DNA from: Macrocystis pyrifera | Taxonomy: Eukaryota; Sar; Phaeophyceae; Laminariales; Laminariaceae | Assembly (NCBI GenBank): GCA_031763025.1 | Contig: JASSKH010000016.1 | Coordinates: forward strand, 6,494,054-6,558,053 | DNA: 64,000 bases | Reading direction: 5' to 3' | In this document: positions 1 through 46,894 of the stretch, in pieces | Position numbering within the stretch: the stretch's first letter is position 1 | Layout: each line of letters opens with the position of its first letter | Notes under the pieces: model-generated | Told to the model about the DNA's origin: nothing | Databases searched by the model: none | The model's input: only the letters and a program-made list of their open reading frames with translations | Made by a program: the position numbers and the translations under genes

Positions 1-1
1 A

Positions 2-3000
2 GAGTCCGCAGCTTCGATTCACAGCTTCGATGATTTCACACCCCATGTCGCTCCTGCCGCTTGCACTACCGTAGAACCTGGTACCACGTAGGCATAAGTA
101 TGCGCACCGCTGTAAATATTATGTCATGCTGAGGGTTTCTAGTGGGAGTCGTGTTACTGCTACTGTCCCAAATCGACTAACCCCCCCCACGCCTCGCCGC
201 CGCCGCCGCTGCCACGTTCCCCACCTGATCATTATTGGAAGTAGTGAACGACGAGGAAGAAAACGACGGAGAGGGGGACATCGCCCCCACCGACCCTTGC
301 CGCGTGTCTTTCGCGTCATCTGGATACTCTGTTTCGAGCACCCCGGCCACGCTCGGCCAAAGCTGCCATGAAGACGCCTTTCCGCGGAAGGGCGGTCGAG
401 ACGATTTTCAGATCGGCAAGGTTAGTCGGTGCACGACGCAAAAGCCGTCTGCAAAATATCTCCGAACTGAAATCGCCTACAGTATATACTCTATGATTTG
501 TGGCTCACGCTACTGTACTGTACGAATTGTACTTATAGGTAAAAAATGAAAATGCACGATGTCGCAAGCTGACAGCAGCACCAAATCGCGTACACACTTT
601 TGCCCTCCCGCGTTTTGGAGAAGGCCCTTCCGCCGACCGCCTTAGGGCGAGGTCTTCCGGAGTTTCGCGGCGGCTTTCGCGAGCGGCCCCCCCTCCGAAG
701 ACCGTCGCTACCGGTGGCAGCTTGGAAGACGGCATGCCAAAGATCACCGACAGGCAGGAGGTGGGCCGCACAACTGCAAGCGCTATTATTAATAATAGTG
801 GCGTCTGTCACGCGGTTATTCACCGACTATATATGGTCGGATAAAGCATCGCTGTGGTCGATGATCTGACACAGTTGGCCGCGGGGTTGACGATCACACG
901 CGGACAAACTACCGCTGTACCACCCCATCACAACATAATGGAAGTATCATTAGTAGTAAACTACAGCAGTACAATACGTACGTACCGTATCCGTTTTTTT
1001 TCGTTACGCACGTACCAGGAAGTCGGGGAAACACACCAAATACAGCTGCACGCTCGGAGACGAAGTCCATGTCGAGGGTAGAAGTGAAGAAAGACCAGCG
1101 ATTGCACTAAGCTCGCGAAACGCATCCGCTACGCACGATGCCGCATGTATTCTTATGATTATCATCATAATTTTTGTTTTATTTTATTTTCGTAATATTA
1201 TCATGGTTTGTATTATTAGTCGTCTTTTAGGGCGGGTACGTAGTGTATTCTCGGAATTTTGTGGCTGATTCATTCATCCCGTGGACTGAGGCCTACCATA
1301 AAACGTTCACAACCAACCCCACATCATCGTCGTCGCCGTCCGGTGCTGTCGGAAATGTCACCCCGCAGAGCGAGGCTAACGACTTTGGCACTTTCGATGG
1401 GATCGGCGACTGGGAATCCATCGTTCGTGGTGAGTCTAACCATTATATTCGGCTCATTCCGATGTACGAGGTTTAGGTTGATATTTATGTTAATATCAAC
1501 AGCTTGTCTCCGAAATATGAGGGCAGCTCTAAAGCGAAATAGGGGGGCAGTTCTAACGGGTTTCTCACAATGAAAGTATCGATTGCCAAACGGCCTAAGT
1601 GCAGTACGAGTCTTCTACAAGTACTCATTTTTCGTTTTCTCCGCCAGTTTCACCGTCCTCAAGCCATCCACCTGCTTCTACTGTAGAATCTTGCCCATTT
1701 GCAGGTTTGCTTGATACCATCGCGCTGATGACTAGCACATCCTCCCCCACCTTCAACCACTTATTGTATGTAGTACAGCAGTACATCAATATAGCCAGGC
1801 GACGACCCTTGGCGATAGCAATGCCGGTACCTGACGCTCGCATGTCCGTTTTTTGTTATTCCCTGTCGTGCACTCAGATGTCGACTTCTTGCTGAAGGAG
1901 ATTGACAAGCTGGACGAACAGGTTTCTTCCGGGTTGGACTTGACCGGTGCCGAGTCGGCGTACCGGACACAATCTTTGATCGAGACGCCTTCGCCACAAG
2001 GGCCGCCGGAAGTGCTCGAGAGGTGAGTCGTCCCTTTCTTACGTACTGATTTTCCGGTACTTTGCGTCAGGCTTCGCTGCGAAGCCGGAGATGTCTTGAA
2101 AACGCATCAAACTTCTTGTTGTCTTGAAAACAGAAAAGGCATACGCTTGTCTTGAAAACACACCAAACGTGTATAAAATCGGACCAAACTTGTCTTCACA
2201 ACCAGTCCAAAGTTGTCGAGAAAACGTTGTCGAATAAACGGACCAGCGTTGTTTTGAAAATAGACGAAACTTGATTTCATGAAAAAGACCAAACTTGTCT
2301 TGAAAACATACAAAATTTGGCGTGAACAAAACAAACAAACTCGATCTTATCTTTGGGCATGGCAACCATCTCTGGTTTCCTTGGGCGCGCGGGTTGTACC
2401 TCAAAGCCGCTGTCGCTAGCGAAAAAGTCACCCTCAACATATTGCTACTCTGTAGGCGAACCACGAAACATGTCGTAATATATGCACTTGCGCGGACGGC
2501 AACATGTGCCCCGCTCCTCGGAATGGCACGGCTGGGGTATCACAGCCAGCCGTGATTGCGGTGCAAGCGTTCATTTTTGTCGAAGTCGATCTCGAAAACC
2601 GTCACTATGGTACTACGAAGTATAATGTCTCGCGCGATGGATGCCCCTGCTATTCATATGTTCTACGTAGTATACAAGTAATGAGCGAGCCTGCACGCTG
2701 TGCTCGTGCGTTGAAATGCTACGGTTGGTATACTACTGTATGTACTTACGTCATTTCTGACATAGCGACAGAGGGCACATACATTGAAAACACAACCCTG
2801 TGATGGCAAACTCGAGGGATGGGGGAAGACAACGAATGCCACGGAAGCTCCTATCTGCACTATCAGTATACGGGACGATCATGAACATTGTGTGCGAACC
2901 TAAAATAAAAGCGTTTCTACAGAGTATAGCAGTTGAGCAAGTTCAGTAGTACCGGACAAGGGGCATCACCGCCCACGAACGCCTCCCGAACTTCTTTCCT

Positions 3001-6000
3001 GGGACTGCCTGTCTTCTTGGCCCAGGGACAGCGCCTTCTTCAACGACACGGCTGTTTTCGAGGACAGCGCCTTCATTGGTGGTCACGCGCCGACTACTCC
3101 TAGCAGCAACAACGACTACCAGGTGAACATCGGGGAGTCGAGATCTCCAGCCCGTCGTCTATGTACAGCTGGGTCTCTGTTATCATGGTCGGGTACGGTA
3201 CGAGGCATCAGCGTTGTCTCATGACAGTTGTTGGCATTTACGGTAGAGCTGCGGCCTAAACTATACTGCCAGAAGTTTCCTACGGTCGTTAACGATCATA
3301 ATACAGGTCTTACCACTAATGATAAGGTCAGGGCTTAAGAACTGAAAAACAACAATTGCGAATTGTCAGGGCAGCTGGAGCTGCGAATGCGATCGTTTTT
3401 TTTTCCATACGCGTACCTGCTTATGTTAAGAGTCTGATTTTCCGTCCACTTGAACGAGGATGGCCTCTGTCATAAGCTGCCACGTTATGGGCCTGATCCC
3501 GAAGTATTGATTCAAACAGGTTCAAGCGTTGGCCGGGGTTAAAGGCGTTTTTGGCAAGAATGCGATGTAATTCCGTGACGCCGTGTGAGGCGCTGCCAAA
3601 GGTTTACAGGCTCTCGGTGGTATTTCGTTATCACAGAGCAACTACATAGGAAGAACAAGGACCGCAAACGAACATACACGCGCGTGACGAACTCGATGGC
3701 GCTGACGGCTCCTTCTGCCTCCGGAATACCACCGCGCGCAGGAATCTAGAACGATTCTTCAATTTTTTTTGTGTGGGCTGGCGGTTTCAGAAGTTATTTT
3801 TCTGGAACCATTCGCAAGTACTATGGCTCGCACAATGGGTCTTGTGACAGTTACAGTTTCGTGCACATTCGTGTTTCCATTAAATATGTTTTACCCGAAA
3901 GCAACACCCTCGCCTGTTGATGCTAGCCCCGGTTTACTATTGGTCATTCCTCTCCCAGCTTTTCAACATTTTATTTTAGGTATGTGTTTGATCGATACCA
4001 TTGTTGACTACTAGTATTGTTGCGTGGTTCGTAGCTCGTGACCACGGCGGTTGTAGGAGAAAATATATCGGTGCAGACCCCGGGTTTTTATGAGTAGAAA
4101 TGGCGGTAATGACTATTATCTTGATAAGACAACACACACCGCACACATTCGCCTCGGAAGCTACTCTTATCACCAGTCTGATTCGTTGAGAGTTACGAGG
4201 CCTACTGTAAGCGAACCTCGACCTTCAAGGCTCAAAATACGTGGGCAGAGTTGTTTTTCTTTTCCGAAACGATAAACGATTGCGTCCCGCCGGAGAGAAG
4301 CGTAGTAGTCTACCACTGCTTTGGTTATCGGCCACCGCATGATGCGACGGTCGACGGTACGGTATGATAGCCCGATTCCCCCCGACTTGCAGTAGTATGT
4401 TCTGAATTTTCTCTGGTGCTTTCCTTCATGGGCGGTTCAACGCCTGGCGTACATATCGCTTAGCATGAAAGTGAACCGCCCATAGCTGCAATAACAATAG
4501 TAGCTGTTGGTAGCTTCCAATAGAGAGCGAAGCTGGCCTTTAGTGCCAGGTGATAGTTTGTGTTGCCGAGCTTTTTATCGCTTCGCACGCAAGGCTTTGC
4601 TTTCAAAACCGATCGATGATACCAGTATCGTCTATGATACACTTATACTCAAGCATCGGATGAAAAGGAGTTGTGGTTGCTTTCACCTTCTCCTCCTCCT
4701 CCTTTTACACCCAGAAAAAGCGTCCCACCTTTTGCATATTTCCGAATTCTCCGTCGCCTGGGCGACAGGTACTCCAGGTATATTGCATGTTTCCATGGTA
4801 ACGAAGGCCGCGGAATGTACGAGGTTTGAGGCGACCTGAAAATATGATATGCCAAGTGGGTGTCTTCCGCGCGTCAGCAGCGGTCACTGAATATCTGGTA
4901 GGCGGTTGTTACAAAGCAAGAATCGCATTGAAACGTGCTTCCCACCGCCCTTACGATGGTGCTGGTTTTGCCTCTCCCATCTCCCATGTGTATGCTCCAC
5001 AGGCTCGTTCTCATGCCGACGCTAGAGCCCTTGTTCTGTGGGTACCTCCTGCCCGTGCCTCTGCTTTCGACGAGGCCCTTCCTTCCGCTGAGCCTGGAGC
5101 CATGGTAGTGTGGACATTTCGGGAGAAGCTTTACGGGACGACTGTGGCACCTTCCTGGTGCTGCTACAGGCTGCCCCGCATGCTTGACCGCAACCATGCA
5201 GGGGAAAGGTGAGCGGAGTTGCGAAAAGCCTGCTCGCGCACTGTAGGCAGGCGATCTGCTCTTGGATGAAACCTACCGAACGTAAGCTTGTTGGAAGTAA
5301 GCGGTGTTGTGAAACGCGGGTGAGACCTCACACGTTCCTCGTCAGCGGTCGGGGTTGAAAGGTGTTGAAAAAACGCGTGCGAGAGAGACCCCGCAAAGCC
5401 TCGATGGTAGTTGTCAGGGTTTACACTCGGTACCTTTCGTCTGAGGGCTGATCGCCCGCACCTGTATACCCCAAGGTGTAGCGAGGGAGATGAATTGGCA
5501 GTGACGACCGCGTTGATTTTTTCGCCTATATGACAGCCTTATCGATGGCATTTCCGATACGGTGCAGGACGACCACCACCAGTCGTAGTAGTTTTGCCAG
5601 TTTTTGTAATTGACCGCCGATGAATCCGCCGTGTCCACGGACACCAAATGACGGTACACCCAAGCCGGAGAGGGCGTTTTTGTAAAGGAGAATGTCACTA
5701 CAGTAGCTGAATAGCTGTGGTTCGACCATTTACCTAGACAAATAGTCCAGTACGTAGAAGGCTCGTTGGCGTCTTGTCTTTACACGTGCTTCCTACCGCA
5801 CTACTGTTGGAGCAGTGTGGTTATATGAAAGCGTCTCGCGTGTTATGATATGGATGTACTGCCATAATAAGCACCTGATCCTACCAGGCATCCGATAGTG
5901 TCGCCTGTTGTTTGTGTGCATGTCGGGTACCGGACAATTGACGCTTGCCTCTTGTGTTTCAACGTGATGCTGTATTGTAGTAATAGTGAGAAGATCTGTC

Positions 6001-7683
6001 GGCAGCAGTAACTCTCTCCTACTATGGACAAATAAAATGTGGGAACGTTACAGAAATGTCTGATACGTAATAAACCGTCACGCACTATTCTGTGTTTTCA
6101 CCGGTCCACTCACCGCAGGTACATGTTTGATGCGATTCTGGCGGCGCGCGCCATGCACGTCGGACTGCCAGCGCGCTCTATCTCCCCCACACGCCAGAGG
6201 TCACCGGGGCTTCCGCTGAGGAATCGATTCAAACCCTCGTTGACACATCGGTGAGAAATTCTTGTTGACCATGTTAATCGTGCGGTATTATACGACAGTA
6301 AGTATATGGCCCTCGAAACCTACTGTAGTAGGTGATAACATAACCCTGATACCACACCACCACCTTTTCCACGTACATTTATGATAATGTTGACAGCAGA
6401 GGGTACACACCATCCACCTGACTTTCTTCATTCGTATCGAAACAGGGGAAAACCTTGATTAAGTTCAAGGACACCCCGGTCTTGACGTTTCCCCCTCTGA
6501 GCTTATCTGAACCCTTGTCAGCTTATCTCAACTCCTCCCAGCTAACGAAAAGCCTCTTGCATTACACTCTGCGTGGCTGGCGGAAATATACGGCAGTGTA
6601 ACCGTGAGGGCTGCTGAGTAGAGTTGGTGTAGTCCCACAACCGGGCCAGTACTTGAGTATGGCTTGCTGCAAGCGACCTCGTGCAGCAACCATGGCTGGA
6701 CGGACCACAAGCTGGAACCAGGGTGCCCAGGAGGTACCCATCATGAACCACTGCGAGTGTGGTGCATACAGTACGTCGGTGCAAGCCATTTGTTGTGTCC
6801 GATTTGGCGTCAATAGCTTGCCCCCAATGTCTTGTGTTGCCTTCCCCGCTCCCGCTGTTAGTAAGTGCATCGTTGTTTGACTTTTTTATGAGGCTTCAAA
6901 ACTCGCTATGGGTGGCTATTTTCTCCTCCCCACAATGCTCTCTCTATCTCTCTATATTTTTTCACATACCTCCCCTTTCCCTCTCTCTCTCCCTGTCCCT
7001 CTCCCTCTCTGGCGCTGTCTGTGTGTGTCCATCTCCATCTCGTCCGGCGCATCTAGGTGATTCCGTCGCACGAACCAGTCCTCCAGACTCATCCCCCCTG
7101 GTTCGAGCTAGACTCTGCCTCCCTGTCTGAAGCACTGGCACCGTGGACCTTTCTCTCCGCGAGACTTCTCGTAGCGTGGACGTGGATGTCGTGGATGTCT
7201 CGCTACCGGGAGACATGCAAGCCCGTATGGGCATTACGCTGGATGCTCGTGTGCCTGATGGCGACATCGTCGCAGGCCCTCGATGGCCTCTTCGCGTTGA
7301 ATGCATGGCCCGCCATAGTCTCGCTCGGCAAACTCTCGGCATCCATGACGTGGGTGGCAGTGCTCCTCTTGACTATCTTATGGCTCGGAGTAGTCTTGCT
7401 GGCGAAGCTCGCGGCGACTATGATCTGGCTGGCCGTGCTCTTCTTGTTCGAGCTGGCGGGGAGTGTCAGCTCAGCGCTCGTGGACTCGACTGTTTTGACT
7501 GCCAGTGTCTTCATACTAGCTGCGATAGTGTCGATTTGGATCGTGGTGACCGACGAGCTCGGACTAGAAGCAGGGCAGGAGGTACGCTATAGTCTATTCG
7601 CGCGGCAGCTTAAGGCTAGAGCCCAAACGCTTGAACGAATGCAGTCTCCGCGGCGGCGCTTGGACGGCCCCTCTTTTGTTTAA
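2..7683 (+). pseudogene. Multi-exon membrane-protein gene, copy A, 5' partial, frameshifted
   Basis: Unknown family. Exons inferred from GT-AG borders and compatible phases: 2-80, 242-420, 1369-1429, 1878-2022, 3026-3122, 5003-5208, 6119-6250 and 7057-7581 (or to the stop at 7683). Each exon except 6119-6250 has the same length as in copy B. That exon has a GC dinucleotide insertion (GCGCGCGCC against GCGCGCC in B) after YMFDAILAAR. The frame then changes and meets TGA at the first codon of exon 7057, so the membrane block would be lost. Substitutions upstream of the lesion are often non-synonymous (several in exon 5003-5208), as expected of relaxed constraint, yet the exon after the stop still varies mostly at silent sites. 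The third exon could also start at 1231, but copy B has indels there, so the shorter form is preferred. The first exon is cut by the window. Confidence 0.65.
7057..7683 (+). CDS. Membrane-spanning exon, copy A
   Basis: Open from the acceptor at 7056 (long pyrimidine tract ending CATCTAG) to the TAA after FV at 7683: 208 codons. Hydrophobic stretches lie at about residues 31-48, 57-70, 99-115, 118-134 and 145-164, followed by a basic tail (RQLKARAQ, PRRRLD). Against copy B there are nine base differences: seven are third-position silent and two change residues (S to C, M to T). The overlapping +2 frame (7143-7592) would take most of these as amino-acid changes, so the 208-codon frame is the real one. 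A GAG/GTACGC donor at 7581/7582 (phase 0) could splice to the Pro-rich exon at 8456. No ATG starts this exon; it depends on upstream exons. Confidence 0.75.
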   Translation: MIPSHEPVLQTHPPWFELDSASLSEALAPWTFLSARLLVAWTWMSWMSRYRETCKPVWALRWMLVCLMATSSQALDGLFALNAWPAIVSLGKLSASMTWVAVLLLTILWLGVVLLAKLAATMIWLAVLFLFELAGSVSSALVDSTVLTASVFILAAIVSIWIVVTDELGLEAGQEVRYSLFARQLKARAQTLERMQSPRRRLDGPSFV

Positions 7684-8455
7684 TGAAGTATTGTCTTCAC
7701 CGATCGAGCAATGGGAGACCCCTGATAGCATTCCCTCTCGGTGGTTGCGACGATGTGACAGCTACGATGTGTTTTTTTTGGGGGGGGTGTTATAGGGCAG
7801 ATACGATACAATCCGTGCCACAGCCTTGCCTTGGCGATTTGTTTTTGCGTCTAGAGCTGCCGACGCGGCGGAGAAACAGAAGCACACGCTTGTCGCACAC
7901 CACTACAGCAGTGCGGCAGGGGGGGTAAAGTGTGGGCCCAACATCTTTGTGACTGGCGATTGTTTGTATCGTACGTAGGCTTCTTTAGCTGAGGAAGTGC
8001 CCTATTCTCTTGCGATCCCAGTTACGTTGAAGTAGACTGTTACATGCATTTCTATTCCATTGACCCGAGGGGGTTGTTCAACAGGGACTACTTACTGTAG
8101 GTTTTATCTTTTTCCTGTGTTGTGCGGGGTATTGAGCTCCTAGTGTTTCGTTGGAACCTGATGTATTTCAGTATATAGGTACTGCTGTAGCCTCTCTACG
8201 GCACTATTCGCTTGTACAGTAGAATAGCATGCTTCGCTTCACAGAGCATCTTGTTTCTTGCAATTTGTTAAATATTAGCTATTCTGAGTTCTCAACCATG
8301 TTCGCCCCTTCGGGACATGTTTGCCGTATGACACCAATAAATCAAAATCCCTTGGGAGAAACGGCGCTCTACTGGCGGCATGACTAACCCAGACCCATTT
8401 TTGGCCCCCTTTGTTCTCGTTGACTTCTGCCATTATTCCATTCGTGGGTATACAG

Positions 8456-8704
8456 GTACGCGCTTCTTCGACTCCATCCCCGGTGCAGCCGATACCGCCA
8501 GCGTCACCAGCACCGACACCACCAGCACAGACTAATGCCTCGCCAGCACCACCAACGCCTTCCCAGACTACTGTGTCACCACCCACCCGTGGGGCGGTCG
8601 CTTCTATCCCTTCGGTGGCAGAGAAGAAGGCTCACCGTAAAGCTAAGACACGCAAGCGTCGCGAAGGTGGCATCGGTCTACATATCTCTGCTATGCGGTG
8701 CTAA
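8456..8704 (+). CDS. Pro-rich, basic C-terminal exon, copy A
   Basis: After a pyrimidine-rich tract ending TATACAG, a phase-0 frame reads 82 codons to TAA. It is rich in Pro, Ala, Ser and Thr (PSPVQPIPPASPAPTPPA), then a basic cluster (KKAHRKAKTRKRR) and GIGLHISAMRC. It is base-for-base identical to copy B at 23142-23390, while flanking DNA differs. No nearby ATG opens it, so it needs an upstream exon. The phase-0 donor at 7581 in the membrane exon fits (intron about 870 bp). It could instead belong to a separate downstream gene. A low-complexity Pro-rich tail with a basic end suggests a disordered cytosolic tail, which is an inference. Confidence 0.5.
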   Translation, partial: VRASSTPSPVQPIPPASPAPTPPAQTNASPAPPTPSQTTVSPPTRGAVASIPSVAEKKAHRKAKTRKRREGGIGLHISAMRC

Positions 8705-8814
8705 GACCGTCACCACGGCGATGGTCTGTACCCAGGCGGACCGGCTTCGGGGGGCGTCTTGTTTTTGTTTGGGTGTGTATTTTCGTTCTTTTTTCTTTCT
8801 TTTTTGCCTTTTAG

Positions 8815-9001
8815 ATGTGGCCGCTTCGTCCTGCCGAAAGACGAGGGACTGCAGACGAGGACCTGGCAGGGTGCGAATATGACCACCTTCGTAGTTAGGG
8901 GAAACAGGGAATTATTATATGTACCCCTCTCCCTTTGCGAGATGTTTCCCTATCTTTGCTATGAACAAGGAGGGAGGAGGGAGGGGAGGAGGGATACCTA
9001 A
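8815..9001 (+). CDS. Candidate downstream exon, copy A
   Basis: A strong pyrimidine tract (TTTTTTGCCTTTTAG) precedes an open stretch reading CGRFVLPKDEGLQTRTWQ and on to TAA at 8999-9001. In copy B (23502-23685) the frame stays open despite a net in-frame 9-base difference near the end. Other frames are also open for a while (one reads MWPLRPAERRGTADEDLAG), so the reading frame is not settled. It may be part of the 3' end of the upstream gene or of a separate one. The following DNA is a GGGA-rich simple repeat. Confidence 0.25.
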
Positions 9002-10678
9002 CATATGGGGGGGGAGGTAAGGAGGGAGGCAGGGAGACAGAGGGGCAGGGAGGGGGTACATAAGGGAGGGGGGGGGAGGAAAGGATGGAGGGAGCGAGGT
9101 GTGGTACACGAAAACACGTCGTAATCTAACGATAGGTTGTTGACCGATTTCGTTGTTCTTCGCTCTTGAAAGAAGCTACCTGGTATTAAGCATACGTGCG
9201 TGGCCAACTCTTGCGTATTGAGCCGGTGGTGTAGACTATTGCTGTACAGGGGCCAATCTTCCCAACGTACTTGGGGTACGCAAAACGTGAAGTATACCAC
9301 ATATTTGTTCTCCTCCAAATGACAGGCGCTACGTATCTACTAGAGACGGCGCCGCGCAACCAAGCCTCACCCCCTGTTACCGCCAGTTATGCACCTCGAA
9401 CCGCCGCCCGGAGCGGCAGGTGACCGTTCAAACCCCCTAAAAACACATGTTCGGTCTGACTCAGTGCCGGCTGTCGCTGTGAGTATAAGCTCAAGGAAGT
9501 CCTACCGCCACACAGTCGTACGGGTGTGAGTCCTCTGCGTGTTGTGAGTAGACACAGAAAAATGTACCTGGAACTTTTCAGCCAACACTACAGTAGGCAC
9601 GATGGAACTGGCCAATCAGAGGGGGGGGCTGGAAGGCTTTTTCTGAGTGCGGCATGTGGTGTACCTGCCGTACATATACATGGCTTGAACGCCATACGAA
9701 ACTTCATCGAGGGGTGCACGTAAATTAACAAAATCCGACACCCCACTGTATCTGTATCAATCTTCGAGACCCAGACGGAGGGGAGCATACTGAAAACGAG
9801 TAAAATCAATTTGTTGGAAAAACTAAACACGTATAATCGTCCAGAATCTTACCCCACCACGTATGATGTAAAACTTCGCTTTTTCAAAGGCATGACCTCT
9901 ATAGGAGTGGCTATTTATTACCTTACCGTGGTGTCGTTTGGTCTTGTTGTCGTTCGTGCACTGCCGGTACCTGGTACACCTAGTTTTGGCTTCCGTCGGA
10001 GGAGCAGTACAACCAAATGCATAGGTATACCTCTTTTAGGCTTTCGTCCTTTCGATATCCCTCCGACGGGCGGGTAGTTTGCGATGAGCTGAAGCCCCCC
10101 CCCAAAAGTTGGGGTCTAATGCGTCGATTGTTTTCGCCCCCAGTCCTGTGGAGAGCAAGGCGGAAGGAAACCCCTGTCCAAAAGACGCTTGAACGAACGT
10201 TGACATAAAAGTTGATTTGACTGCGTGCACCAGCTCGATCCCGGTTCGCCTTCTCCATGATGCCGGGCCCTGTCTTGGCCGTCTCGAAAGAAAAACAACG
10301 AAGCATAAATAAATGTCAGTTGACGGTCTAATTTTGGCCAGTCTCAGGGCATTCCGTACTTTCGATACATCGTAAGTAAATGTTGGACGCGTTTTTACCC
10401 TCCCTCCCCTGGAATCCCCGTTTTTTCGACAAGGTATAATGTCGTCTACTACAGGTTAGGAGGCTTTGTTGGGGGGGGGGGGGGGGGGGGAGCGACTTTT
10501 AGAACCCCCAGAGGCAAACTCCCAATGCTTATATCATCTTCATCCAAAGAGGATAAGAGCACTAAAATGACGGTCAAGTATGATATTTTATTGAGCGCGC
10601 GTTTTTTTCCCTTCAGCCCCTGGTATCCACATCCCCGCGTGTGTTTTATGATGATTCTGAACGTTTTGTTGTTTCGAC

Positions 10679-10715
10679 GTACATACGTACGTACGTACGT
10701 ACGTACGTACGTACT
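10679..10715. repeat. (ACGT)n microsatellite
   Basis: About nine ACGT units preceded by one imperfect unit. The same locus in copy B (about 25,359-25,380) has about half as many, so it has changed length since the duplication. Confidence 0.9.
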
Positions 10716-10989
10716 CGCATCGACTACGATCGAAATCGCATCCATTTACGTTTTTGTTTATTGGTATATTGTATCGTACACACCGAACATACGATTCTCC
10801 TTCGATGCCCATTGCCACTTACACAGCGCACTGCAACACTGCAGAACCGTTGGGCAACACCTGAGGTGGTGGGAGTTACACCCGGACGGGACGGGGCTGG
10901 GCGAGTCGTGGTAGACCCCCAAGTCCCCCAAAGCAACGGCAAGCGGACTCTCCTTTCTCCTCCCGGGACCATCGATCCCACACCGGGGG

Positions 10990-11115
10990 GGGGAGTACTC
11001 ATTTGTTGCATGCCTTAGTCGTTTGACCATTAACCACGCACCCCTTTCGAGACGGAGCACCGTTCCTACCCCACATAGAGACAGACGCCTCCAACATTAA
11101 CATTTGGGGCCTTGT
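10990..11115 (+). repeat. Dispersed repeat family R1, member in copy A
   Basis: TACTCATTTGTTGC, then CCTTAGTCGTTTGACCATTA, CATCCC(T)TTCGAGACGGAGCACCGTTCCTAC-type blocks and a TTACGTTTTTTT end. Related copies are at 25,671-25,800, 48,988-49,115 and, inverted, 54,945-55,090. Nature unknown; possibly a non-autonomous transposon fragment. Confidence 0.75.
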
Positions 11116-11375
11116 TACGTTTTTTTCCATACTATACATGAAACATGTTTGGCTTATCTCATCCCCTTCCTGTTTCGCCTTTTGTGGCCACCATCCATCT
11201 CCTGACGGGGCGGGGGGGGGGGGGGGACACTCGTATACACAACACAGAGCCCAACCCAGCTCTACCCCAACCCGAGCAAGACCAACACCTCCCCACCCAC
11301 ACCAAGCTACCTAAACATTTGTTTGCCCAGTCCCTGAACTTGTGTAGCTGTTATCCCGAGCCGTCCGCCACTGTA

Positions 11376-12344: not shown

Positions 12345-12671
12345 TTGTCAGGCGTTTTGATACTGTAGATCAATGCGGGGATGCAAAACATGCTTGATCG
12401 TTGATGCGTGTCGTGTTTCGTTTATTTTATTTTAACCAACGCACCAACGCTTACAACATCATAGGATACGGGTCTACTTCTTGAAGCGCGACCGAGAAAG
12501 AAAGTAAGAGAGGCCGACCAGCCGACGACCCCTGCGCCTAGGGCTGTCCGTTCCGTCTCTGGGCGGATACTCTTCAGGTGGATTCACAGACGGCATCGCT
12601 GAACGTTGAATCGTACACATATTACATCTTCCTATCTCGAGCTGCGTGGAGTGTGTGATCTCTTCTCCGCG

Positions 12672-14031: not shown

Positions 14032-15290
14032 ATGTTTGCAGCGAGCGACAAGCGCAACACCTGTTATATCGCACCATCTCGCGGCTCAATCCCAGGTCTG
14101 GACAGTTCCCAAACATCGCCCACCTATATATAAAAACAACGAAAACATGTTTAGTTTTTTTTTTTTTTTGGCATGGTGCACTCTCAGATGTACTCTTTGC
14201 GAACTTCGTCTCGAACGATCCACCGAGACTTCAAGAATGTTGAATATCAGCTCTGCGTTTCTCGATAGAGCATCGGCTACAGCCCCAATCCACGTTTTGG
14301 CACTCTGAAGCGTTGACACCGTCGCTAGTCGGTGTGTACTCTCCTCGTACAATACCCGCGGATAACAGAGGCAATCACGACTAACGGTGGCGGAGACCCA
14401 ATACCTTCCCGAGTAGGATAAGGTTATCGACACTTGCACGCCACCGTATTGGCGTTGGCAAGCTTTTTGTTGGTCGCACCGTCTGTGTTCACAATAGTGT
14501 GTGAGTTGAACTTTACTATTAATATTATACATGCTTGCTGTGAGTGGCAACGACCAGTATCAACGATCTCCACAAACAGAAAGCAAACAAGCACACTCCC
14601 CCCGGTGCAGTTCCAGTAGATAAATTGGAGTGGGCAAGATGTCTCCGTAGTCTACATACAGACAATATACAAGAGTCCGCAGCTTCGATTCACAGCTTCG
14701 ATGATTTCACACCCCATGTCGCTCCTGCCGTTTGCACTACCGTAGAACCTGGTACCATGTAGGCGTAAGTATGCGCACCGCTGTAAATATTATGTCATGC
14801 TGAGGGTGTCTAGTGGGAGGCGTGTTACTGCTACTGTCGCCAATCGACTAAACCCCCCCCCCCCCACACGCCTCGCCGCCGCCGCCGCTGCCACGTTCCC
14901 CACGTGACCATTATTGGAAGTAGTGAACGACGACGAAGAAAACGACGGAGAGGGGGACATCGCCCCCACCGACCCTTGCCGCGTTTCTTTCGCGTCATCT
15001 GGACACTCTGTTTCGAGCACCCCGGCCACGCTCGGCCAAAGCTGCCATGAAGACGCCTTTCCGCGGAAGGGCGGTCGAGACGATTTTCAGATCGGCAAGG
15101 TTAGTCGGTGCACGATGAAAAGCCGCCTGCAAAATATCTCCGAACTGAAATCGCCTACAGTATATACTGTATGATTTGTGGCTCACGCTACTGTACTGTA
15201 CGAATTTTACTTTTAGGTAAAAAAAAAAACGCAATCTGACCGCAGCACCAAATCACGTGCGCACTTTTGCCCTCCCGCTTTTTGGACCCC

Positions 15291-15332
<42 letters not shown>

Positions 15333-18300
15333 AGAAGGCCCTTCCGCCGACCGCCTTAGGGCGAGGTCTTCCTGGAATTTCGCGGCGGCTTTCTCGAGCG
15401 GCCCCCCCTCCGAAGACCGTCGCTACCGGTGGCAGCTTGGAAGACGGCATGCCAAAGATCACCGACAGGCAGGAGGTGGGCCGCACAACTGCAAGCGCTA
15501 TTATTAATAATAGTGGCGTCTGTCACGCGGTTATCACCGACTATATGTGGTCGGATAAAAAGCATCGCTGTCGTCGGTTATCAGACACAGTTGGCCGCGG
15601 GGTTGACGATCACGCGCGGACAAACTACCGCTGTACCACCCATCACAACATAATGGAAGTATCATTAGTAGTAAACTACAGCAGTACAATACGTACGTAC
15701 CATATACGTTTTTCGTTACGCACGTACCAGGAAGTCGGGGAAACACACCAAATACAGCTGCACGCTCGGAGACGAAGTCCATTTCGAGGGTAGAAGTGAA
15801 GAAAGACCAGCGATTGCACTAAGCTCGCGAAACGCATCCGCTACGCACGATGCCGCATGTATTATTATGATTATCGTCATAATTTTTGTTTTTTTTTTAT
15901 TTTCGTAATATTATCATGGTTTGTATTATTAGTCGTCTTTTAGGGCGGGTGGAGTATTCTCGGAATTTTGTGGCTCATCCCGTGGACTGAGGCCTACTAT
16001 AAAACGTTCACAACCCCACATCATCGTCGTCGTCGCCGTCCGGTGCTGTCGGAAATGTCACCCCGCAGAGCGAGGCTAACGACTTTGGCACTTTCGATGG
16101 GATCGGCGACTGGGAATCCATCGTTCGTGGTGAGTCTAACCATTATATTCGGCTCATTCCGATGTACGAGGTTTAGGTTGATATTTATGTTAATATCAAC
16201 AGCTTGTCTCCGAAATATGGGGGCAGCTCTAAAGCGAAATAGGGGGGCAGTTCTAACGTATTTCTCACAATGAAAGTCTCGATTGCCAAACGGCCTAAGT
16301 GCAGTACGAGTCTTCTACAAGTACTCATTTTTCGTTTTCTCCGCCAGTTTCACCGTCCTCAAGCCATCCACCTGCTTCTACTGTAGAATCTTGCCCATTT
16401 GCAGGTTTGCTTGATACCATCGCGCTGATGACTAGCACATCCTCCCCCACCTTCAACCACTTACTGTATGTAGTACAGCAGTACATCAATATAGCCAGGC
16501 GACGACCCTTGGCGATAGCAATTCCGGTACCTGACACTCGCATGTCCGTTTTTTGTTATTCCCTGTCGTGCACTCAGATGTCGACTTCTTGCTGAAGGAG
16601 ATTGACAAGCTGGACGAACAGGTTTCTTCCGGGCTGGGTTCGACCGGTGCCGAGTCGGCGTACCGGACACAATCTTTGATCGAGACGCCTTCGCCACAAG
16701 GGCCGCCGGAAGTGCTCGAGAGGTGAGTCGTCCCTTTCTTACGTACTGATTTTCCGGTACTTTGCGTCAGGCTTCGCTGCGAAGCCGGAGATGTCTTGAA
16801 AACGTATCAAACTTCTTGTTGTCTTGAAAACAGAAGAAGGCATACGCTTGTCCTGAAAACACACCAAACGAGTCTAAAACCGGACCAAACTTGTCTTCAC
16901 AACCAGTCCAAAGTTGTCGAGAAAACGTTGTCGAATAAACGGACCAGCGTTGTTTTGAAAATAGACGAAACTTGATTTCATGAAAAAGACCAAACTTGTC
17001 TTGAAAACATACAAAATTTGGCGTGAACAAAACAAACAAACTAGATCTTTGGGCATGGCAACCATCTGTGGTTTCCTTGAGCGCGCGGGTTGTACCTCAA
17101 AGCCGCTGTCGCTAGAGAAAAAGTCACCCTCAACATCATGCTACTCTGTAGGCGCACCACGAAACATGTCGTAATATATGCACTTGCGCGGACGGCAACA
17201 TGTGCCCCGCTCCTCGGAATGGCACGGCTGGGGTAACACAGCCAGCCGTGATTGCGGTGCAAGCGTTCATTTTTGTCGAAGTCGATCTCGAAAACCATCC
17301 ATATGGTACTACGAAGTATAATGTCTCGCGCGATGGATGCCCCTGCTGTTCATATGTTCTACGTAGTATACAAGTAATGAGCGAGCCTGCACGCTGTGCT
17401 CGTGCGTTGAAATGCTACGGTTGGTATACTACTGTATGTACTTACGTCATTTCTGACATAGCGACAGAGGGCACATACATTGAAAACACAACCCTGTGAT
17501 GGCAAACTCGAGGGATGGGGGAAGACAACGAATGCCACGGAAGCTCCTATCTGCACTATCAGTATACGGGACGATCATGAACATTGTGTGCGAACCTAAA
17601 ATAAAAGCGTTTCTACAGAGTACAGCAGTTGAGCAAGTTCAGTAGTACCGGAGAAGGGGCATCACCGCCCACGAACGCCTCCCGGACTTCTTTCCTGGGA
17701 CTGCCTGTCTTCTTGGCCCAGGGACAGCGCCTTCTTCAACGACACGGCTGTTTTCGAGGACAGCGTCTTCATTGGTGGTCACGCGCCGACTACTCCTAGC
17801 AGCAACAACGACTACCAGGTGAACGTCGGGGAGTCGAGATCTCCAGCCCGTCGTCTATGTACAGCTGGGTCTCTGTTATCATGGTCGGGTACGGTACGAG
17901 GCATCAGCGTTGTCTCATGACAGTTGTTGGCATTTACGGTAGAGCTGCGGCCTAAACTATACTGCCAGAAGTTTCCTACGGTCGTTAACGATCATAGTAC
18001 AGGTCTTACCACTAATGATAAGGTCAGGGCGTAATAAACGAGCCACGACAATTGCGAATTGTCAGGGCAGCTGGAGCTGCGAGTGCGATCGTTTTTTGTT
18101 TCCATACGCGTACCTGCTTCTGTTAAGAGTCTGATTTTCCGTCCGCTTGAACGAGGGTTGCCTCTGTCATAAGCTGCCATGTTCTGGGCCTGATCCCGAA
18201 GTATTTATTTAAACAGGTTCAAGGGTTAGCCGGGTTAAAGGCGTTTTTGGCAAGAATGCGATGTAATTCCGTGACGCCGTGTGAGGCGCTGCCAAAGGTT

Positions 18301-21300
18301 TACAGGGTCTCGGTGGTATTTCGTTAGCACAGAGCAACTACATAGGAAGAACAAGGACCGCAAACGAACATACACGCGCGTGACGAACTCGATGGCGCTG
18401 ACGGCTCCTTCTGCCTCCGGAATACCACCGCGCGCAGGAATCTAGAACGATTCTTCAAATTTTTTGTGTTGGCTTGCGGTTTCAGAACTTATTTTTCTGG
18501 AGCCATTCGCAAGTACTATGGCTCGCACAATGGGTCTTGTGACAGTTACAGTTTCGTTTACATTCGTGTTGCCATGAAATAAGTTTTACCCGAAAGCAAC
18601 AGCCTCGCCTGTGGTTGCTAGCCCCGGTTTACTATTGGTCATTCCTCTCCCCGCTTTTCAAAATTTTATTTTATGTTTGTGTTTTTTCGATACCATTGTT
18701 GACTACTAGTATTGTTATGTGGTTCGTAGCTTGTGACCACGGCGGTTGTAGGAGAAAACATATCAGTGCAGACCCCGGGTTTTTATGAGTAGAAATGGCG
18801 GTAATGACTATTATCTTGATAAGACAACGCACACCGCACACATTCGCCTCGGAAGCTACTCTTATCACCAGTCTGATTCGTTGAGAGTTACGAGGCCTAC
18901 TGTAAGCGAACCTCGACCTTCAAAGCTCAAAACACGTGGGCAGAGTTGTTTTCTTTTCCCAAACGATAAACGATTGCGTCCCGCCGGAGAGAAGCGTAAT
19001 ATTCTACCACTGCTTTGGTTTTCGGCCACCGCATGATGCGACGGTCAACGGCACGGTATGATAGCCCGATCCCCCCGACTTGCAGTAGTATGTTCTGAAT
19101 TTTCTCTGATGCTTTCCTTCATGGGCGGTTCGACGCCTAGCGTACGTATCGCTTAGCATGAAAATAAACCGCCCATAGCTGCAATAACAATGGTAGCTGT
19201 TGGTAGCTTCCAATAGAGAGCGAAGCTGGCCTTTAGTGCCAGGTGATGATTCGTGTTGCCGAGCTTTTATCGCTTCGCACACAAGGCTTTGCTTTCAAAA
19301 TCGACCGATGATACCAGTCACGAGGTATCGTCTATGATAAACGTATACTCAAGCATCGGATGAAAAGGAGTTGTGGTTTCTTTCACCTTCTCCTTCTCCT
19401 CCTTTTACACCCAGAAAAAGCGTCCCACCTTTTGCATATTTCCGAATTCTCCGTCGCCTGGGCAACAGGTACTCCAGGTATATCGCATGTTCCCATGGTA
19501 ACGAAGGCCGCGGAATGTACGAGGTTTGAGGCGACCTGAAAATATGATATACCAAGTGGGTGTCTTCCGCGCGTCAGCAGCGGTCACTGAATATCTGGTA
19601 GGCGGTTGTTACAAAGCAAGAATCGCATTGAAACGTGCTTCCCACCGCCCTTACGATGGTGCTGGTTCTGCCCCTCCCATCTCCCATGTATATACTCCAC
19701 AGGCTCGTCCTCATGCCGACGCTAGAGCCCTTGTTCTATGGGTACCTCCTGCCCGTGCCTCTGCTTTCGACGAGGCCCTTCCTTCCGCTGAGCCTGGAGC
19801 CATGGTAGTGTGGACTTATCCGGAGAAGCTTTACGGGACGACTGTGGCACCTTACTGGTGCTGCTACAGGCTGCCCCGCGTGCTTGACCGCAACCATGCA
19901 GGGGAAAGGTGAGGGGAGTTGCGAAAAGCCTGTTCGCGCGCTGTAGGCAGGCGATCTGCTCTTGGATGAAACCTACCGAACGTAAGCTTGTTGGAAGTAA
20001 GCGGTGTTGTGAAACGCGTGCGAGACCTCACACGTTCCTCGTCAGCGGTCGGGGTTGAAAGGTGTTGAAAAAACGCGTGCGAGAGAGACCCGGCAAAGCC
20101 TCGATGGTAGTTGTCAGGGTTTACACTCGGTACCTTTCGTCTGAGGACTGATCGCCCGCACCTGTATACCCCAAGGTGTAGCGAGGGAGATGAATTTGGC
20201 AGTGACAACCGCGTTGATTTTTTCGCCTATATGACAGCCTTATCGATGGCATTTCCGATACGGTGCAGGACGACCATCACCCGTCGTAGTTTTGCCAGTT
20301 TTTGTAATTGACTGCCGATGAATCCGACGTGTCCACGGACACCAAATGACGGTACACCCAAGCCGGAGAGGGCGTTTTTGTAAAGGAGAATGGCACTAGC
20401 TGAATAGCTGTGGTTTGGGCATTTACCCGGACAAATAGTCCAGTACGTAGAAGGCTCGTTGGCGTCTTGTCTTTACACGTGCTTCCTACCGCAGTACTGT
20501 TGGAGCAACGTGGTTATATGAAAGCGTCTCGCGTGTTATGATATGGATGTACTGCCATAATAAGCACCTGATCCTACCAGGCACCCGATAGTGTCACCTG
20601 TTGTTTGTGTACATGTCGTGTACCGGACAATTGACGCTTGCCTCCTGTGTTTCAGCGTGATGCTGTATTGTAGTATTAGTGAGAAGGCCTGTCGACAGCA
20701 GTAACTCTCTCCTACTATGGACAGATAAAATGTGGGAACGTTACAGAAATGTCTGATACGTAATAAACCGTCACGCACTATTCTGTGTTTTCACCGGTCC
20801 ACTCACCGCAGGTACATGTTTGATGCGATTCTGGCGGCGCGCCATGCACGTCGGACAGCCAGCGCGCTCTATATCCCCTACACGCCAGAGGCCACCGGGG
20901 CTTCCGCTGAGGAATCGATTCAAACCCTCGTTGACACATCGGTGAGAAATTCTTGTTGACCATGTTAATCGTGCGGTATTATACTGCAGTAAGTATATGG
21001 CCCTCGAAACCTACTGTAGTAGGCGATAACATAACCCTGATACCACACCACCACCTTTTCCACGTACATGATAATGTTGACAGCAGAGGGTACACACCAT
21101 CCACCTGACTTTCTTCATTCGTATCGAAACAGGGGAAAACCTTGATTAAGTTCAAGGACACCCCGGTCTTGACGTTTCCCCCTCTGAGCTTATCTGAACC
21201 CTTGTCAGCTTATCTCAACTCCTCCCAGCTAACGAAAAGCCTCTTGCATTACACTCTGCGTGGCTGGCGGAAATATCCGGCAGCGTAACCGTGAGGGCTG

Positions 21301-23390
21301 CTGAGTAGAGTTGGTGTAGTCCCACAACCGGGCCAGTACTTGGGTATGGCTTGCTGCAAGCGACCTCGTGCAGCAGCCATGGCTGGACGGAGCACAAGCT
21401 GGAACCAGGGTGCCCAGGAGGTGCCCATCATGAACCACTGCGAGTGTGGTGCATACAGTACGTCGGTGAAAGCCATTGTTGTGTCCGATTTGGCGTCAAT
21501 AGCTTGCCCCCAATGTCTTGTGTTGCCTTCCCCGCTCCCGCTGTTAGTAAGTGCATCGTTGTTTGACTTTTTTATGAGGCTTCAAAACTCGCTATGGGTG
21601 GCTATTTTCTCCTCCCCACAATGCTCTCTCTATCTCTCTATATTTTTTCACATAGCTCCCCTTTCCCTCTCTCTCTCCCTGTCCCTCTCCCTCTCTGGCG
21701 CTGTCTGTGTGTGTCCATCTCCATCTCGTCCGGCGCATCTAGGTGATTCCGTCGCACGAACCAGTCCTCCAGACTCATCCCCCCTGGTTCGAGCTAGACT
21801 CTGCCTCCCTGTCTGAAGCACTGGCACCGTGGACCTTTCTCTCAGCGAGACTTCTCGTAGCGTGGACGTGGATGTCGTGGATGTCTCGCTACCGGGAGAC
21901 ATGCAAGCCCGTATGGGCATTGCGCTGGATGCTCGTGTGCCTGATGGCGACATCGTCGCAGGCCCTCGATGGCCTCTTCGCGTTGAATGCATGGCCCGCC
22001 ATAGTCTCGCTCGGCAAACTCTCGGCATGCACGACGTGGGTAGCAGTGCTCCTCTTGACTATCTTATGGCTCGGAGTAGTCTTGCTGGCGAAGCTCGCGG
22101 CGACTATGATCTGGCTCGCTGTGCTCTTCTTGTTCGAGCTGGCGGGGAGTGTCAGCTCAGCGCTCGTGGACTCGACTGTTTTGACTGCCAGTGTCTTCAT
22201 ACTGGCCGCGATAGTGTCGATTTGGATCGTGGTGACCGACGAGCTCGGACTAGAAGCAGGGCAGGAGGTACGCTATAGTCTATTCGCGCGGCAGCTTAAG
22301 GCTAGAGCCCAAACGCTTGAACGAATGCAGTCTCCGCGGCGGCGCTTGGACGGCCCCTCTTTTGTTTAATGAAGTATTGTCTTCACCGATCGAGCAATGG
22401 GAGACCCCTGATAGCATTCCCTCTCGGTGGTTGCGACGATGTGACAGCTACGATGTGTTTTTTTGGGGGGGGTGTTATAGGGCAGATACGATACAATCCG
22501 AACCACAGCCTTGCCTTGGCGATTTGTTTTTGCGTCTAGAGCTGCCGACGCGGCGGAGAAACAGAAGCACACGCTTGTCGCACACTACTACAGCAGTGCG
22601 GCAGGGGGGGTAAAGTGTGGGCCCAACACTGTTGTGACTGGCGATTGTTTGTATCGTACGTAGGCTTCTTTAGCTGAGGAAGTGCCCTATTCTCTTGCGA
22701 TCCCAGTTACGTTGAAGTAGACTGTTACATGCATTTCTATTCCATTGACCCGAGGGGGTTGTTCAACAGGGACTACTTACTGTAGGTTTTATCTTTTTCC
22801 TGTGTTGTGCGGGGTATTGAGCTCCTAGTGTTTCGTTGGAACCTGATGTATTTCAGTATATAGGTACTGCTGTAGCCTCTCTACGGCACTATTCGCTTGT
22901 ACGGTAGAATAGCATGCTTCGCTTCACAGAGCATCTTGTTTCTTGCAATTTGTTAAATATTAGCTATTCTGAGTTCTCAACCATGTTCGACCCCCCAAAG
23001 CATGTTTGCCGTATGACACCAATAAATCAAAATCCCTTTGGGAGAAACGGCGCTCTACTGGCGGCATGACTAACCCAGACTCTTTTTTGGCCCCCTTTGT
23101 TCTCGTTGACTTCTGCCATTATTCCATTCGTGGGTATACAGGTACGCGCTTCTTCGACTCCATCCCCGGTGCAGCCGATACCGCCAGCGTCACCAGCACC
23201 GACACCACCAGCACAGACTAATGCCTCGCCAGCACCACCAACGCCTTCCCAGACTACTGTGTCACCACCCACCCGTGGGGCGGTCGCTTCTATCCCTTCG
23301 GTGGCAGAGAAGAAGGCTCACCGTAAAGCTAAGACACGCAAGCGTCGCGAAGGTGGCATCGGTCTACATATCTCTGCTATGCGGTGCTAA
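14032..23390 (+). CDS. Multi-exon putative membrane protein, copy B (intact model)
   Basis: No family recognised. Model: 14032-14095 (tentative first exon, ATG), 14611-14751, 14921-15099, 16069-16129, 16578-16722, 17722-17818, 19703-19908, 20812-20941, 21743-22267, 23142-23390. All joins are GT-AG and in phase, giving about 598 aa; ending instead at 22369 gives about 549 aa. The N-terminal third is acidic and Ser/Thr-rich (NDDEENDGEGD, then DWESIVRDVDFLLKEIDKLDEQ, which may be helical). The middle contains LVLWVPPARASAFDEALPS and YMFDAILAARHARRTASALY. Exon 21743 encodes a hydrophobic block with about four to five potential membrane segments. The tail is Pro-rich then basic, or a short basic tail. 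Compared with copy A, exons lack indels except for A's 2-bp insertion, and exon 21743 differs mainly at synonymous sites. The first two exons are the least certain; from 14921 onward the model is firm. Confidence 0.65.
15292..15330. repeat. 39-bp C homopolymer, copy B only
   Basis: Uninterrupted C run inside the second intron of the copy B gene. Copy A has no such run at the matching place (about 617-622). It may be a real expansion or an assembly artefact. Confidence 0.85.
21743..22369 (+). CDS. Membrane-spanning exon, copy B
   Basis: Counterpart of 7057-7683, same length, no indels, 208 codons to TAA. It joins in phase 0 to exon 20812-20941 (ending DTS) across a roughly 800-bp intron with a CT-rich 3' end. 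It encodes the hydrophobic core (for example LTILWLGVVLLAKLAA and VFILAAIVSIWIV), suggesting a polytopic membrane protein. The same phase-0 donor after LEAGQE (22267/22268) is present as in copy A, so either a basic tail ending PSFV or the Pro-rich tail is possible. The family is unknown to me. Confidence 0.78.
   Translation: MIPSHEPVLQTHPPWFELDSASLSEALAPWTFLSARLLVAWTWMSWMSRYRETCKPVWALRWMLVCLMATSSQALDGLFALNAWPAIVSLGKLSACTTWVAVLLLTILWLGVVLLAKLAATMIWLAVLFLFELAGSVSSALVDSTVLTASVFILAAIVSIWIVVTDELGLEAGQEVRYSLFARQLKARAQTLERMQSPRRRLDGPSFV
23142..23390 (+). CDS. Pro-rich, basic C-terminal exon, copy B
   Basis: Identical to 8456-8704. The acceptor TATACAG is at 23141 and the stop TAA at 23388-23390. 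It fits in phase 0 to the donor at 22267 in the membrane exon of this copy. Complete identity over 249 bp within otherwise diverged surroundings argues for function or gene conversion. Included in the copy B gene model as the alternative last exon. Confidence 0.5.
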   Translation, partial: VRASSTPSPVQPIPPASPAPTPPAQTNASPAPPTPSQTTVSPPTRGAVASIPSVAEKKAHRKAKTRKRREGGIGLHISAMRC

Positions 23391-23685
23391 GACCGTCACC
23401 ACGGCGATGGTCTGTACCCAGGCGGACCGGCTTCGGGGGGCGTCTTGTTTTTGTTTGGGTGTGTATTTTCGTTCTTTTTTCTTTCTTTTTTTGCCTTTTA
23501 GATGTGGCCGCTTCGTCCTGCCGAAAGACGAGGGACTGCAGACGAGGACCTGGCAGGGTGCGAATATGACCACCTTCGTAGTTAGGAGAAACAGGGAATT
23601 ATTATATGTACCCCTCTCCCTTTGCGAGATGTTTCCCTATCACAACGCTATTTGCTGTGAACAAGGAGGGAGGAGGGATACCTAA

Positions 23686-26050
23686 CATATGAGGGAGGGA
23701 GGTAGGGAGGGAGGCAGAGAGACAGAGGGGCAGGGAGGGGGTACACAAGGGTGGGGGGGAGGAAAGGATGGAGGGAGCGAGGTGTGGTACACGAAAACAC
23801 GTCGTAATCCAACGATAGGTTGTTGACCGATTTCGTTGTTCTTCGCTCTTGGAAGAAGCTAGCTGGTATTGAGCATACGTGCGTGGCCAACTCTTGCGTA
23901 TTGAGCCGGTGGTGTAGACTATTGCTGTACAGGGGCCAATCTTCCCAACGTACTTGGGGTACGCAAAACGTGAAGTATACCACAAATTTGTTCTCCTCCA
24001 AATGACAGGCACTACGTATCCACTAGAGACGGCGCCGCGCAACCAAGCCTCACCCCCTGTTACCGCCAGTTATGCACCTCGGACCGCCGCCCGGAGCGGC
24101 AGGTGACCGTTCAAACACCCTAAAAACACATGTTCGGTCTGACTCAGTGCCGGCTGTCGCTGTGAGTATAAGCTCAAGGAAGCCCTACCGCCACACAGTC
24201 GTACGGGTGTGAGTCCTCTGCGTGTTGTGAGTAGACACAGAGAAATGTACCTGGAACTGTTCAGCCAACACTACAGTAGGCACGATGGAGCTGGCCAATC
24301 AGAGGGGGGGGCTGGAAGGCTTTTTCTGAGTTCGGCATGTGGTGTACCTGCCGTACATATACATGGCTTGAACGGCATACGTAACTTCATCGAGGGGTGC
24401 ACGTAAATTAACAAAATCCGACACCTCACTATATCTGTATCAATCTTCGAGACCCAGACGGAGGGGAGCATACTGAAAACGAGTAAAATCAATTGTTGGA
24501 AAAACTAAACACTTTTCGTATAATCGTCCAGAATCTTACCCCACCACGTATGATGTAAAACTTCGCTTTTTTCAAAGGCATGACCTCTATAGGAGTGGCT
24601 ATTAATACCTTACCGTGGTGTTGTTTGGTCTTGTTGTCATTCATGCACTCCTAGTACCTGGTACACCTAGTTTTGGCTTCCGTCGGAGGAGCAGCTCAAC
24701 CAAAAATGCATAGGTATATCTGTTTTAGGCTTTCGTCCTTTCGATATCCCTCCGACGGGCGGGTAGTTTGCGATAAGCTGAACCCCCCCCCAAAAGTTGG
24801 GGTCTAATGTGTCGATTGTTTTTGCCCCCAGCCTGTGGAGAGCAAGGCCGAAGGAAACCCCTGTCCAAAAGGCACTTGAACGAATGTTGACATAAAAATT
24901 GATTTGATTGCGTGCACCAGCTCGATCCCGCTTCGCCTTCTCCATTATGCCGGGCCTTGTCTTGGCCGTCTCGAAAGAAAAACAACGAAGCATAAATAAA
25001 TGTCAGTTGACGGTCTGATTTTGGCCAGTCTCAGGGCATTCCGTACTTTCGATACATCGTACGTATATGTTGGACGCGTTTGTACCCTCCCTCCCCTGGC
25101 ATCCCCGTTTTTCGACAAGGTATAATGTCTTCTACTACAGGTTAGGAGGCTTTGGGGGGGGGGGGGGGGGGGAGGGCGACTTTAGGACCCCCAGAGGCAA
25201 ACTCCCAATGCATATCTCATCTTCACCCAAAGAGGATAAGACCACTAAAATAACAGTCAAGTATGATATTTTGTTGAGCGCGCGTTTTTCCCTTCAGCCC
25301 CTGGTATCCACATCCCCGCGTGTGTTTTATGATGATTCTGAACGTTTCGTTGTTTCGACGTACGTACGTACGTACGTACTCGCATCGACTACGATCGAAA
25401 TCGCATCCATTTACTTTGTTGTTTTTTGGTATATTGTATCGTACATATCGAACATGCGATTCTCCTTCGGTGCCCATTGCCACTTGCACAGCGCACTACG
25501 ACACTGCAGAAGAACCGTTGGGCAACACCTGAGGTGGTGGGAGTTACACCCGGACGGGGCGGGGCTGGGCGAGTCGTCGTAGACCCCCAAGCCCCCCAGA
25601 GCAACGGCAAGCGGACTCCTTTCTCCTCCGGGAACCATCGATTCCACACCGGGGGGGGGGGGGGGGGGGGGTACTCATTTGTTGCATGCCTTAGTCGTTT
25701 GACCATTAACCACGCATCCCTTTCGAGACGGAGCACCGTTCCTACCCCACAGAGACAGACGCCTCCAACATTAACATTTGGGGCCTTGTTACGTTTTTTT
25801 CCATACAATACATGAAACATGTTTGGCTTATCTCATCCCCTTCCTGTTTCGCCTTTTGTGGCCACCATCCATCTCCTGACGGGGCGGGGGAGCGGGGGAC
25901 ACTCGTATACACAGCACAGAACCCAACCCAGCTCAACCCCAACCCAACCAAAAACAACTCCTCCATACCCACACCAAGTTACCTAGACATTTGTTTGCCC
26001 AGTCCTTGAACTTGTGTAGCTGTTATCCCGACCCTTCCGCTACTACTGCC
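23686..26050. other. Duplicated non-coding tail of copy B
   Basis: Counterpart of 9,002-11,375. No supported exon. Features: GGGA-rich tract (about 23,660-23,765), poly-G (about 25,155-25,172 and 25,651-25,671), a short (ACGT)n tract (about 25,359-25,380) and the dispersed repeat at 25,671-25,800. Confidence 0.6.
25671..25800 (+). repeat. Dispersed repeat family R1, member in copy B
   Basis: Same element as 10,990-11,115, carried along by the duplication, preceded by a G run as in the other members. Confidence 0.75.
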
Positions 26051-36095: not shown

Positions 36096-37260
<1,165 letters not shown>

Positions 37261-46890: not shown

Positions 46891-46894
46891 TGCA

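Follow-up and report, generated by a model that had tools for sequence, protein, structure and literature searches.

The question raised by the first 26 kb of a 64,000-nucleotide stretch of the giant kelp Macrocystis pyrifera (contig JASSKH010000016.1, here C196; C196:6494054-6558053, plus strand; hereafter the window) is whether the two similar units lying there hold a gene, and of what kind. An earlier note had read them as a diverged duplication whose insertions and deletions (indels) outline the exons of a gene of no recognisable family, and it proved mostly right: the observation was partly confirmed and the interpretation supported. The two units very probably carry a plus-strand protein-coding gene of about 13 exons, as two adjoining members of a multi-copy giant-kelp family, most of whose members form tandem arrays on a single chromosome. 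The best reading of the predicted products is a lineage-specific family of multi-pass membrane proteins shaped by tandem duplication, by decay and by recombination.

Copies A (1-11372) and B (14672-26044) were paired by blastn in two pieces of 93.1% and 95.9% identity, and a MAFFT alignment of the two contained 11,270 aligned columns with 343 substitutions and 52 indel events. The pair thus stood, but not the 11.4-kb length first given to its unit. The sequence 12137-14671 of copy B also paired with DNA directly upstream of the window (pieces of 86-94% identity), so the unit measures about 14 kb. By blastn, plus-strand copy B occupies 12137-26044, and copy A, on the same strand, reaches some 2.7 kb beyond the upstream edge of the window, where its first exon lies at C196:6491901-6492065 (approximately window -2152 to -1988). 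Close copies are arranged head to tail, A and B at a spacing of 14.7 kb. For the 764 bases at 11373-12136, blastn paired nothing in the DNA upstream of copy A.

In copy B, 13 exons (x1 and x3-x14, all on the plus strand, 54-525 nucleotides long and of mixed phases) joined in phase into a chain of 682 amino acids that opens with ATG and closes with a stop codon, and all internal borders carry AG and GT. Exon x1 (12672-12839; 24.7 bits) lies upstream of the originally noted unit and supplies the start codon and a hydrophobic N terminus. Beside it stands x1b (12910-13002, plus strand), which repeats in tandem the 3′ portion of x1 together with the donor; the duplication spans 12758-12927 and 12921-13094 and recurs beside x1 in other copies. 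The use of x1b is uncertain, its frame being open and in phase if included. Exons x3 (13766-13838, phase 0 to 1) and x4 (14024-14095, 72 nucleotides, phase 1 to 1) are less certain; x3 was placed by its borders and frame, with weak protein resemblance in the D copies and a DNA match in A only. Exon x5 (14662-14751) was identified by recurrence, borders and frame. It is followed by the acidic, Ser-rich x6 (14921-15099; copy A 242-420), x7 (16069-16129; copy A 1369-1429), x8 (16578-16722; copy A 1878-2022), x9 (17722-17818; copy A 3026-3122) and x10 (17969-18022; copy A 3273-3326). The conserved middle domain, WVPP...YGT..AP.WCCYRLPR, is encoded by x11 (19703-19908; copy A 5003-5208). Exon x12 (20812-20941) has 130 nucleotides in copy B and 132 in copy A (6119-6250), where the frame is lost. 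A hydrophobic multi-helix block of 175 amino acids is encoded by x13 (21743-22267; copy A 7057-7581), and x14 (23142-23390; copy A 8456-8704) encodes a Pro-rich and then polybasic tail ending in GIGLHISAMRC and a stop. Among the nine rows listed for this terminus, HISAMRC is replaced by HISAVRC in copy C.

A second complete frame, ATG through stop codon, was found in copy D4, where 11 exons encode 683 amino acids and all internal borders again carry AG and GT. There the counterpart of x10 lacks a GT donor and is replaced by x10b, and x11 is longer, beginning further upstream; the x11 acceptor AG of A and B is absent in D, G and H. A candidate exon at 15335-15475 scored 17.2 bits in copy B and was rejected, being 1 nucleotide shorter in copy A. 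Between x12 and x13, a segment termed x12b (21133-21286) encodes LLHYTLRGWRK, conserved in the D copies, and is closed by a stop codon in both A and B; it is possibly an optional exon.

The predicted chain opens with the hydrophobic exon x1 and continues through a region that is acidic and rich in Ser and Thr, the WVPP/WCCYRLPR domain and the hydrophobic multi-helix block to a polybasic tail rich in Pro. The middle domain named in the earlier note corresponds to the conserved domain of x11. Its acidic N-terminal region is present, but is preceded by the hydrophobic x1, and its polytopic membrane block corresponds by hydropathy to x13, which is not the C terminus. Composition and hydropathy were computed on an earlier 630-amino-acid chain of copy B, without x3 and x4 and with an x5 start lacking AG. 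In that chain the 204 residues after x1 contain 38 Asp and Glu against 11 Lys and Arg, and the last 82 contain 12 Lys and Arg, 3 Asp and Glu and 16 Pro. Hydropathy peaks of x13 fall at consensus positions 26-44, 63-81, 87-142 and 146-164; the hydrophobic stretch of x1 was recognised by hydropathy alone.

Coding evidence within the pair was drawn from nine model exons (x6-x14, 1,645 nucleotides). These contained 29 of the 343 substitutions and one of the 52 indels between A and B, that one being the frame loss of copy A in x12, and diverged by 1.8% versus 3.3% outside. Circular shifts of the exon set gave means of 49 substitutions (P 0.022) and 7.5 indels (P 0.012), P values that, like the one that follows, are optimistic because the exons were partly picked by eye on the same alignment. 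The ratio of nonsynonymous to synonymous substitution rates (Ka/Ks) over the nine exons was 0.41 (16 changes at 1224.7 nonsynonymous sites and 13 at 410.3 synonymous sites; one-sided Fisher P 0.015). It was nevertheless uneven, rising from 0.10 in x13 through 0.34 in x8, 0.60 in x6 and 0.85 in x11 to 1.06 in x12, with no synonymous change in x9 and x10 and no change whatever in x7 and x14. Most of the signal came from x13, with two nonsynonymous and seven synonymous changes. A simple gene-finder with parameters set by hand scored 107 on the plus strand of copy B and 83 on that of copy A, against 42 (B) and 45 (A) on the minus strand. Three other 14.7-kb stretches of the window scored 11-50 over both strands, and 25 local shuffles gave a mean of 24 (standard deviation 5, maximum 33).

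The concentration of length changes in introns, already remarked from the pair, held among the close copies as well. When copy B was aligned with parts of its nine closest relatives (16 alignments; 12,040 exon and 49,751 intron columns in sum), two distinct indels fell in exons and 69 in introns. Substitutions in the same alignments amounted to 2.0% in exons and 2.5% in introns, a contrast much smaller than that between A and B. Among the ten close copies, which include A and B, length was kept for x6-x10 at eight of eight loci, for x11 in ten of ten, for x12 in eight of ten and for x13, at 525 nucleotides, in ten of ten.

The duplication is real and is part of a family. In a search of the genome (537,376,219 bases in 223 contigs, match counts being lower bounds), a 2-kb probe gave at least 37 matches, of which ten were full length at 94-100% identity, all on C196: A and B, and eight at 6.19-6.31 Mb in the opposite orientation, spaced 15.3-19.8 kb apart. 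The remaining matches were partial and diverged and lay nearly all on C196 at 7.6-9.0 Mb; the others comprised one short row each on contigs C191 and C204, together with two rows of 42 bases at 6.40 and 6.42 Mb. For x11, at least 19 matches were found, none with an internal stop. At least 18 of them lie on C196 (ten at 93-100% and eight at 64-70%) and one on contig C126 (46%). Exon x1 had at least 32 matches: 13 full length at 96-100%, 12 corresponding to the neighbouring x1b and seven diverged at 40-53%, two of these seven on C126. Further x1 copies, for which the 2-kb probe gave no long match, were seen on C196 at approximately 6.395, 6.425, 6.448 and 6.470 Mb; of these, the copy at 6.470 Mb was examined and has a different 3′ body.

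Diverged loci keep the exons in the same order. With borders placed by hand in these copies, exon lengths among the listed copies differ by multiples of three and AG and GT stand at most borders; copy A was omitted from the x12 length list because its frame is lost there. As placed, D1 is off in x12, D2 is off in x11, and copy C has no AG at the start of x14. The claim that frames, exon lengths, GT-AG borders and phase were kept at eight places, which the earlier note did not list, holds in general and fails at x12 of copy A. Six pairs of paralogues with pooled dS of 0.13-0.61 gave pooled dN/dS of 0.456-0.596 over the exons available for each pair; single exons ranged from 0.26 to 0.99, with one undefined.

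The strongest alternative is that the units descend from a gene but have for the most part decayed to pseudogenes, which unequal crossing-over multiplied although they yield no working protein. Two results favor it and weigh against the predicted functional family. Frames are broken in several copies: x12 is broken in copy A, in the copy in L038 and in D1, x13 carries a stop in the copy in L035 (one of the ten close copies), and copy E has a stop in x7 and has lost borders. In eight exons of the close copies, 38 nonsynonymous and 20 synonymous variants were counted, a pooled pN/pS of 0.62 that was not significantly below 1 (two-sided P 0.087), with ratios of 13:4 in x11 and 10:3 in x12. Further points against the predicted family are that the borders of x10 and x11 vary among copies, that x3 and x4 are the least certain exons of copy B and weakly supported, and that an AlphaFold2 model of x13, although all helical, had a mean predicted local distance difference test score (pLDDT) of 49, too low to use, so that no fold supports the topology. 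A decayed array accords poorly, however, with the constant 525 nucleotides of x13 and its single stop among ten copies, with the dN/dS of 0.46-0.60 between paralogues, with the scarcity of indels in exons (2 against 69 in introns), and with the complete open frames of B and D4. We consider this alternative unlikely. Because the close-copy variants number 6:9 nonsynonymous to synonymous in x13 against 13:4 and 10:3 in x11 and x12, the membrane exon is clearly under selection, whereas none is demonstrated for x11-x12. The frame losses of x12 in A, D1 and the L038 copy are changes of different kinds, and the form found in copy A occurs in one of the ten close copies.

A second alternative concerns the strand of x13, where an antisense open reading frame at 7206-7586 shares third codon positions with the plus frame and could itself be the real exon. 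In its favor, between A and B this frame shows two nonsynonymous and six synonymous changes. In B and D4, however, it is the plus frame of x13 that links x12 and x14 in phase, and the plus-strand gene-finder score is about twice that of the minus strand. The plus-strand protein of x13 is also 46-52% identical to that of other copies along the exon, only the plus frame having been scored in diverged copies. An antisense exon is thus very improbable. Least probable of all is a mobile element of unknown kind bearing an intron-rich gene, for although the copies are many and hold no known domain, they follow each other at steps of 15.3-19.8 kb in the second array and 14.7 kb in the window, 18 of 19 x11 matches share one contig, and the six frames of 1-14702 contain no transposase, integrase, polymerase or reverse transcriptase domain (terminal repeats and target-site duplications at unit ends were not searched for).

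For the predicted membrane-protein family, a history of recombination was indicated by comparing identity in 250-base bins along A, B and C, the last being the neighbour of A at 6.470 Mb. Up to approximately 6493.4 kb, copy A was 95-99.6% identical to C and 68-98% to B; beyond that point it was 94-99.6% identical to B. Copy C remained 93-98% identical to A until approximately 6494.95 kb (window position about 900) and then fell to 44-71%, unrelated or far diverged, with its own diverged x13 and x14 downstream. By these alignments at least two copies, A and C, are mosaics, the nearest relative of the 5′ part not being that of the 3′ part. In addition, 403 bases of B (23083-23486) are identical in A, above the 99.9th percentile (363) expected from uniform placement. 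Recent gene conversion is a fair guess here, because the identical stretch spans both x14 and non-coding DNA.

The absence of a recognisable family, as first noted, was upheld. Pfam returned no family in six X-masked frames of 1-14702 (E 0.1), in the spliced B or D4 protein (E 1), in x13 of eight copies (E 1), or in six frames of 43900-47501, four long open reading frames and three plus frames of C126:639000-656000. Partial copy H gave one sub-threshold hit, to the profile Herpes_DNAp_acc in its Pro-rich tail (E 0.14; 11.5 bits, the cut-off being 25), which was attributed to chance. Against PDB, x13 gave no match and the partial spliced copy H gave only E values of 0.15 and 0.84. Searches of viral contigs with x13 gave no result, and 119 pattern matches to the x13 alignment there, like 58 for x13 in prokaryotic contigs, yielded none that was confirmed. 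No description of the membrane-protein family was found in the literature outside subscription papers and PhycoCosm gene models. As a kind it is so far unremarkable, being a family of rapidly changing genes amplified in tandem. It resembles multi-pass membrane proteins in the several hydrophobic stretches of x13 and the positively charged tail, but differs in having no Pfam match, confident PDB match or confident fold.

The closest parallel lies in the brown-algal ROCO genes, candidate immune receptors which, according to PMC11378527, carry LRR-ROC-COR domains and reshuffle 72-bp LRR exons of phase 2. Both are recombining families in which gene pieces are exchanged. The kelp family differs, however, in having no such domain by Pfam, in its varied exon sizes and phases, and in the differing ancestry of long 5′ and 3′ parts. 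No domain of the ROCO or the related NB-ARC-TPR genes (ROC-COR, NB-ARC, LRR or TPR) was found by Pfam in the frames of 1-14702, spliced B and D4 or the eight x13 members, and the only 72-nucleotide exon, x4, is in phase 1. The family was not placed with ROCO genes because their defining domains are absent; recombination is a common theme.

Elsewhere in the window, a palindromic element roughly 105 bp long, whose inverted ends read TACGGGGG...CCCCCGTA, occurs in seven aligned copies on both strands (31194-31303, 32676-32788, 34973-35080, 47017-47122, 48789-48900, 53073-53182 and 53979-54088), with further partial copies by blastn. One copy folded into a single long hairpin, and the element looks like a miniature inverted-repeat transposable element. 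A trinucleotide repeat tract of about 1.2 kb (36091-37290) is open in several frames, and 49137-49457 and 55657-55982 form an inverted repeat pair of 83% identity. Composition of the window is nearly even (the four bases make up about 25% each, and every dinucleotide ratio falls within 0.92-1.09), and tRNA and Rfam scans gave no result. The giant kelp genome paper (PMC10498591) places the putative female region on scaffold 2; C196, whose length is that of the N50 (13,669,674 bases), is unlikely to be that scaffold, and the idea that it is the sex chromosome was set aside.

We tentatively propose that the protein would be embedded in either the plasma membrane or an endomembrane, its acidic region facing outward or into the lumen and its basic tail facing the cytosol, and that unequal crossing-over or gene conversion within the arrays would provide both copy number and diversity for a rapidly evolving surface protein. 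An extension, which we regard as rather unlikely, is that the arrays are a variety-generating kelp surface-protein locus in which a selected C-terminal membrane part is joined by recombination to differing N-terminal parts, x11-x12 changing amino acids freely, as would befit an immune, symbiont or gamete recognition system that does without LRR, NB-ARC or ROCO domains.

Reading of the raw sequence alone thus led to what is in all likelihood a true multi-exon gene without a database relative. A recombining family of predicted membrane proteins in giant kelp offers copy number and mosaics that can be tested across individuals. Should the family vary between individuals, or respond to pathogens or to gametes, it would become a candidate locus for recognition in an independently multicellular lineage.

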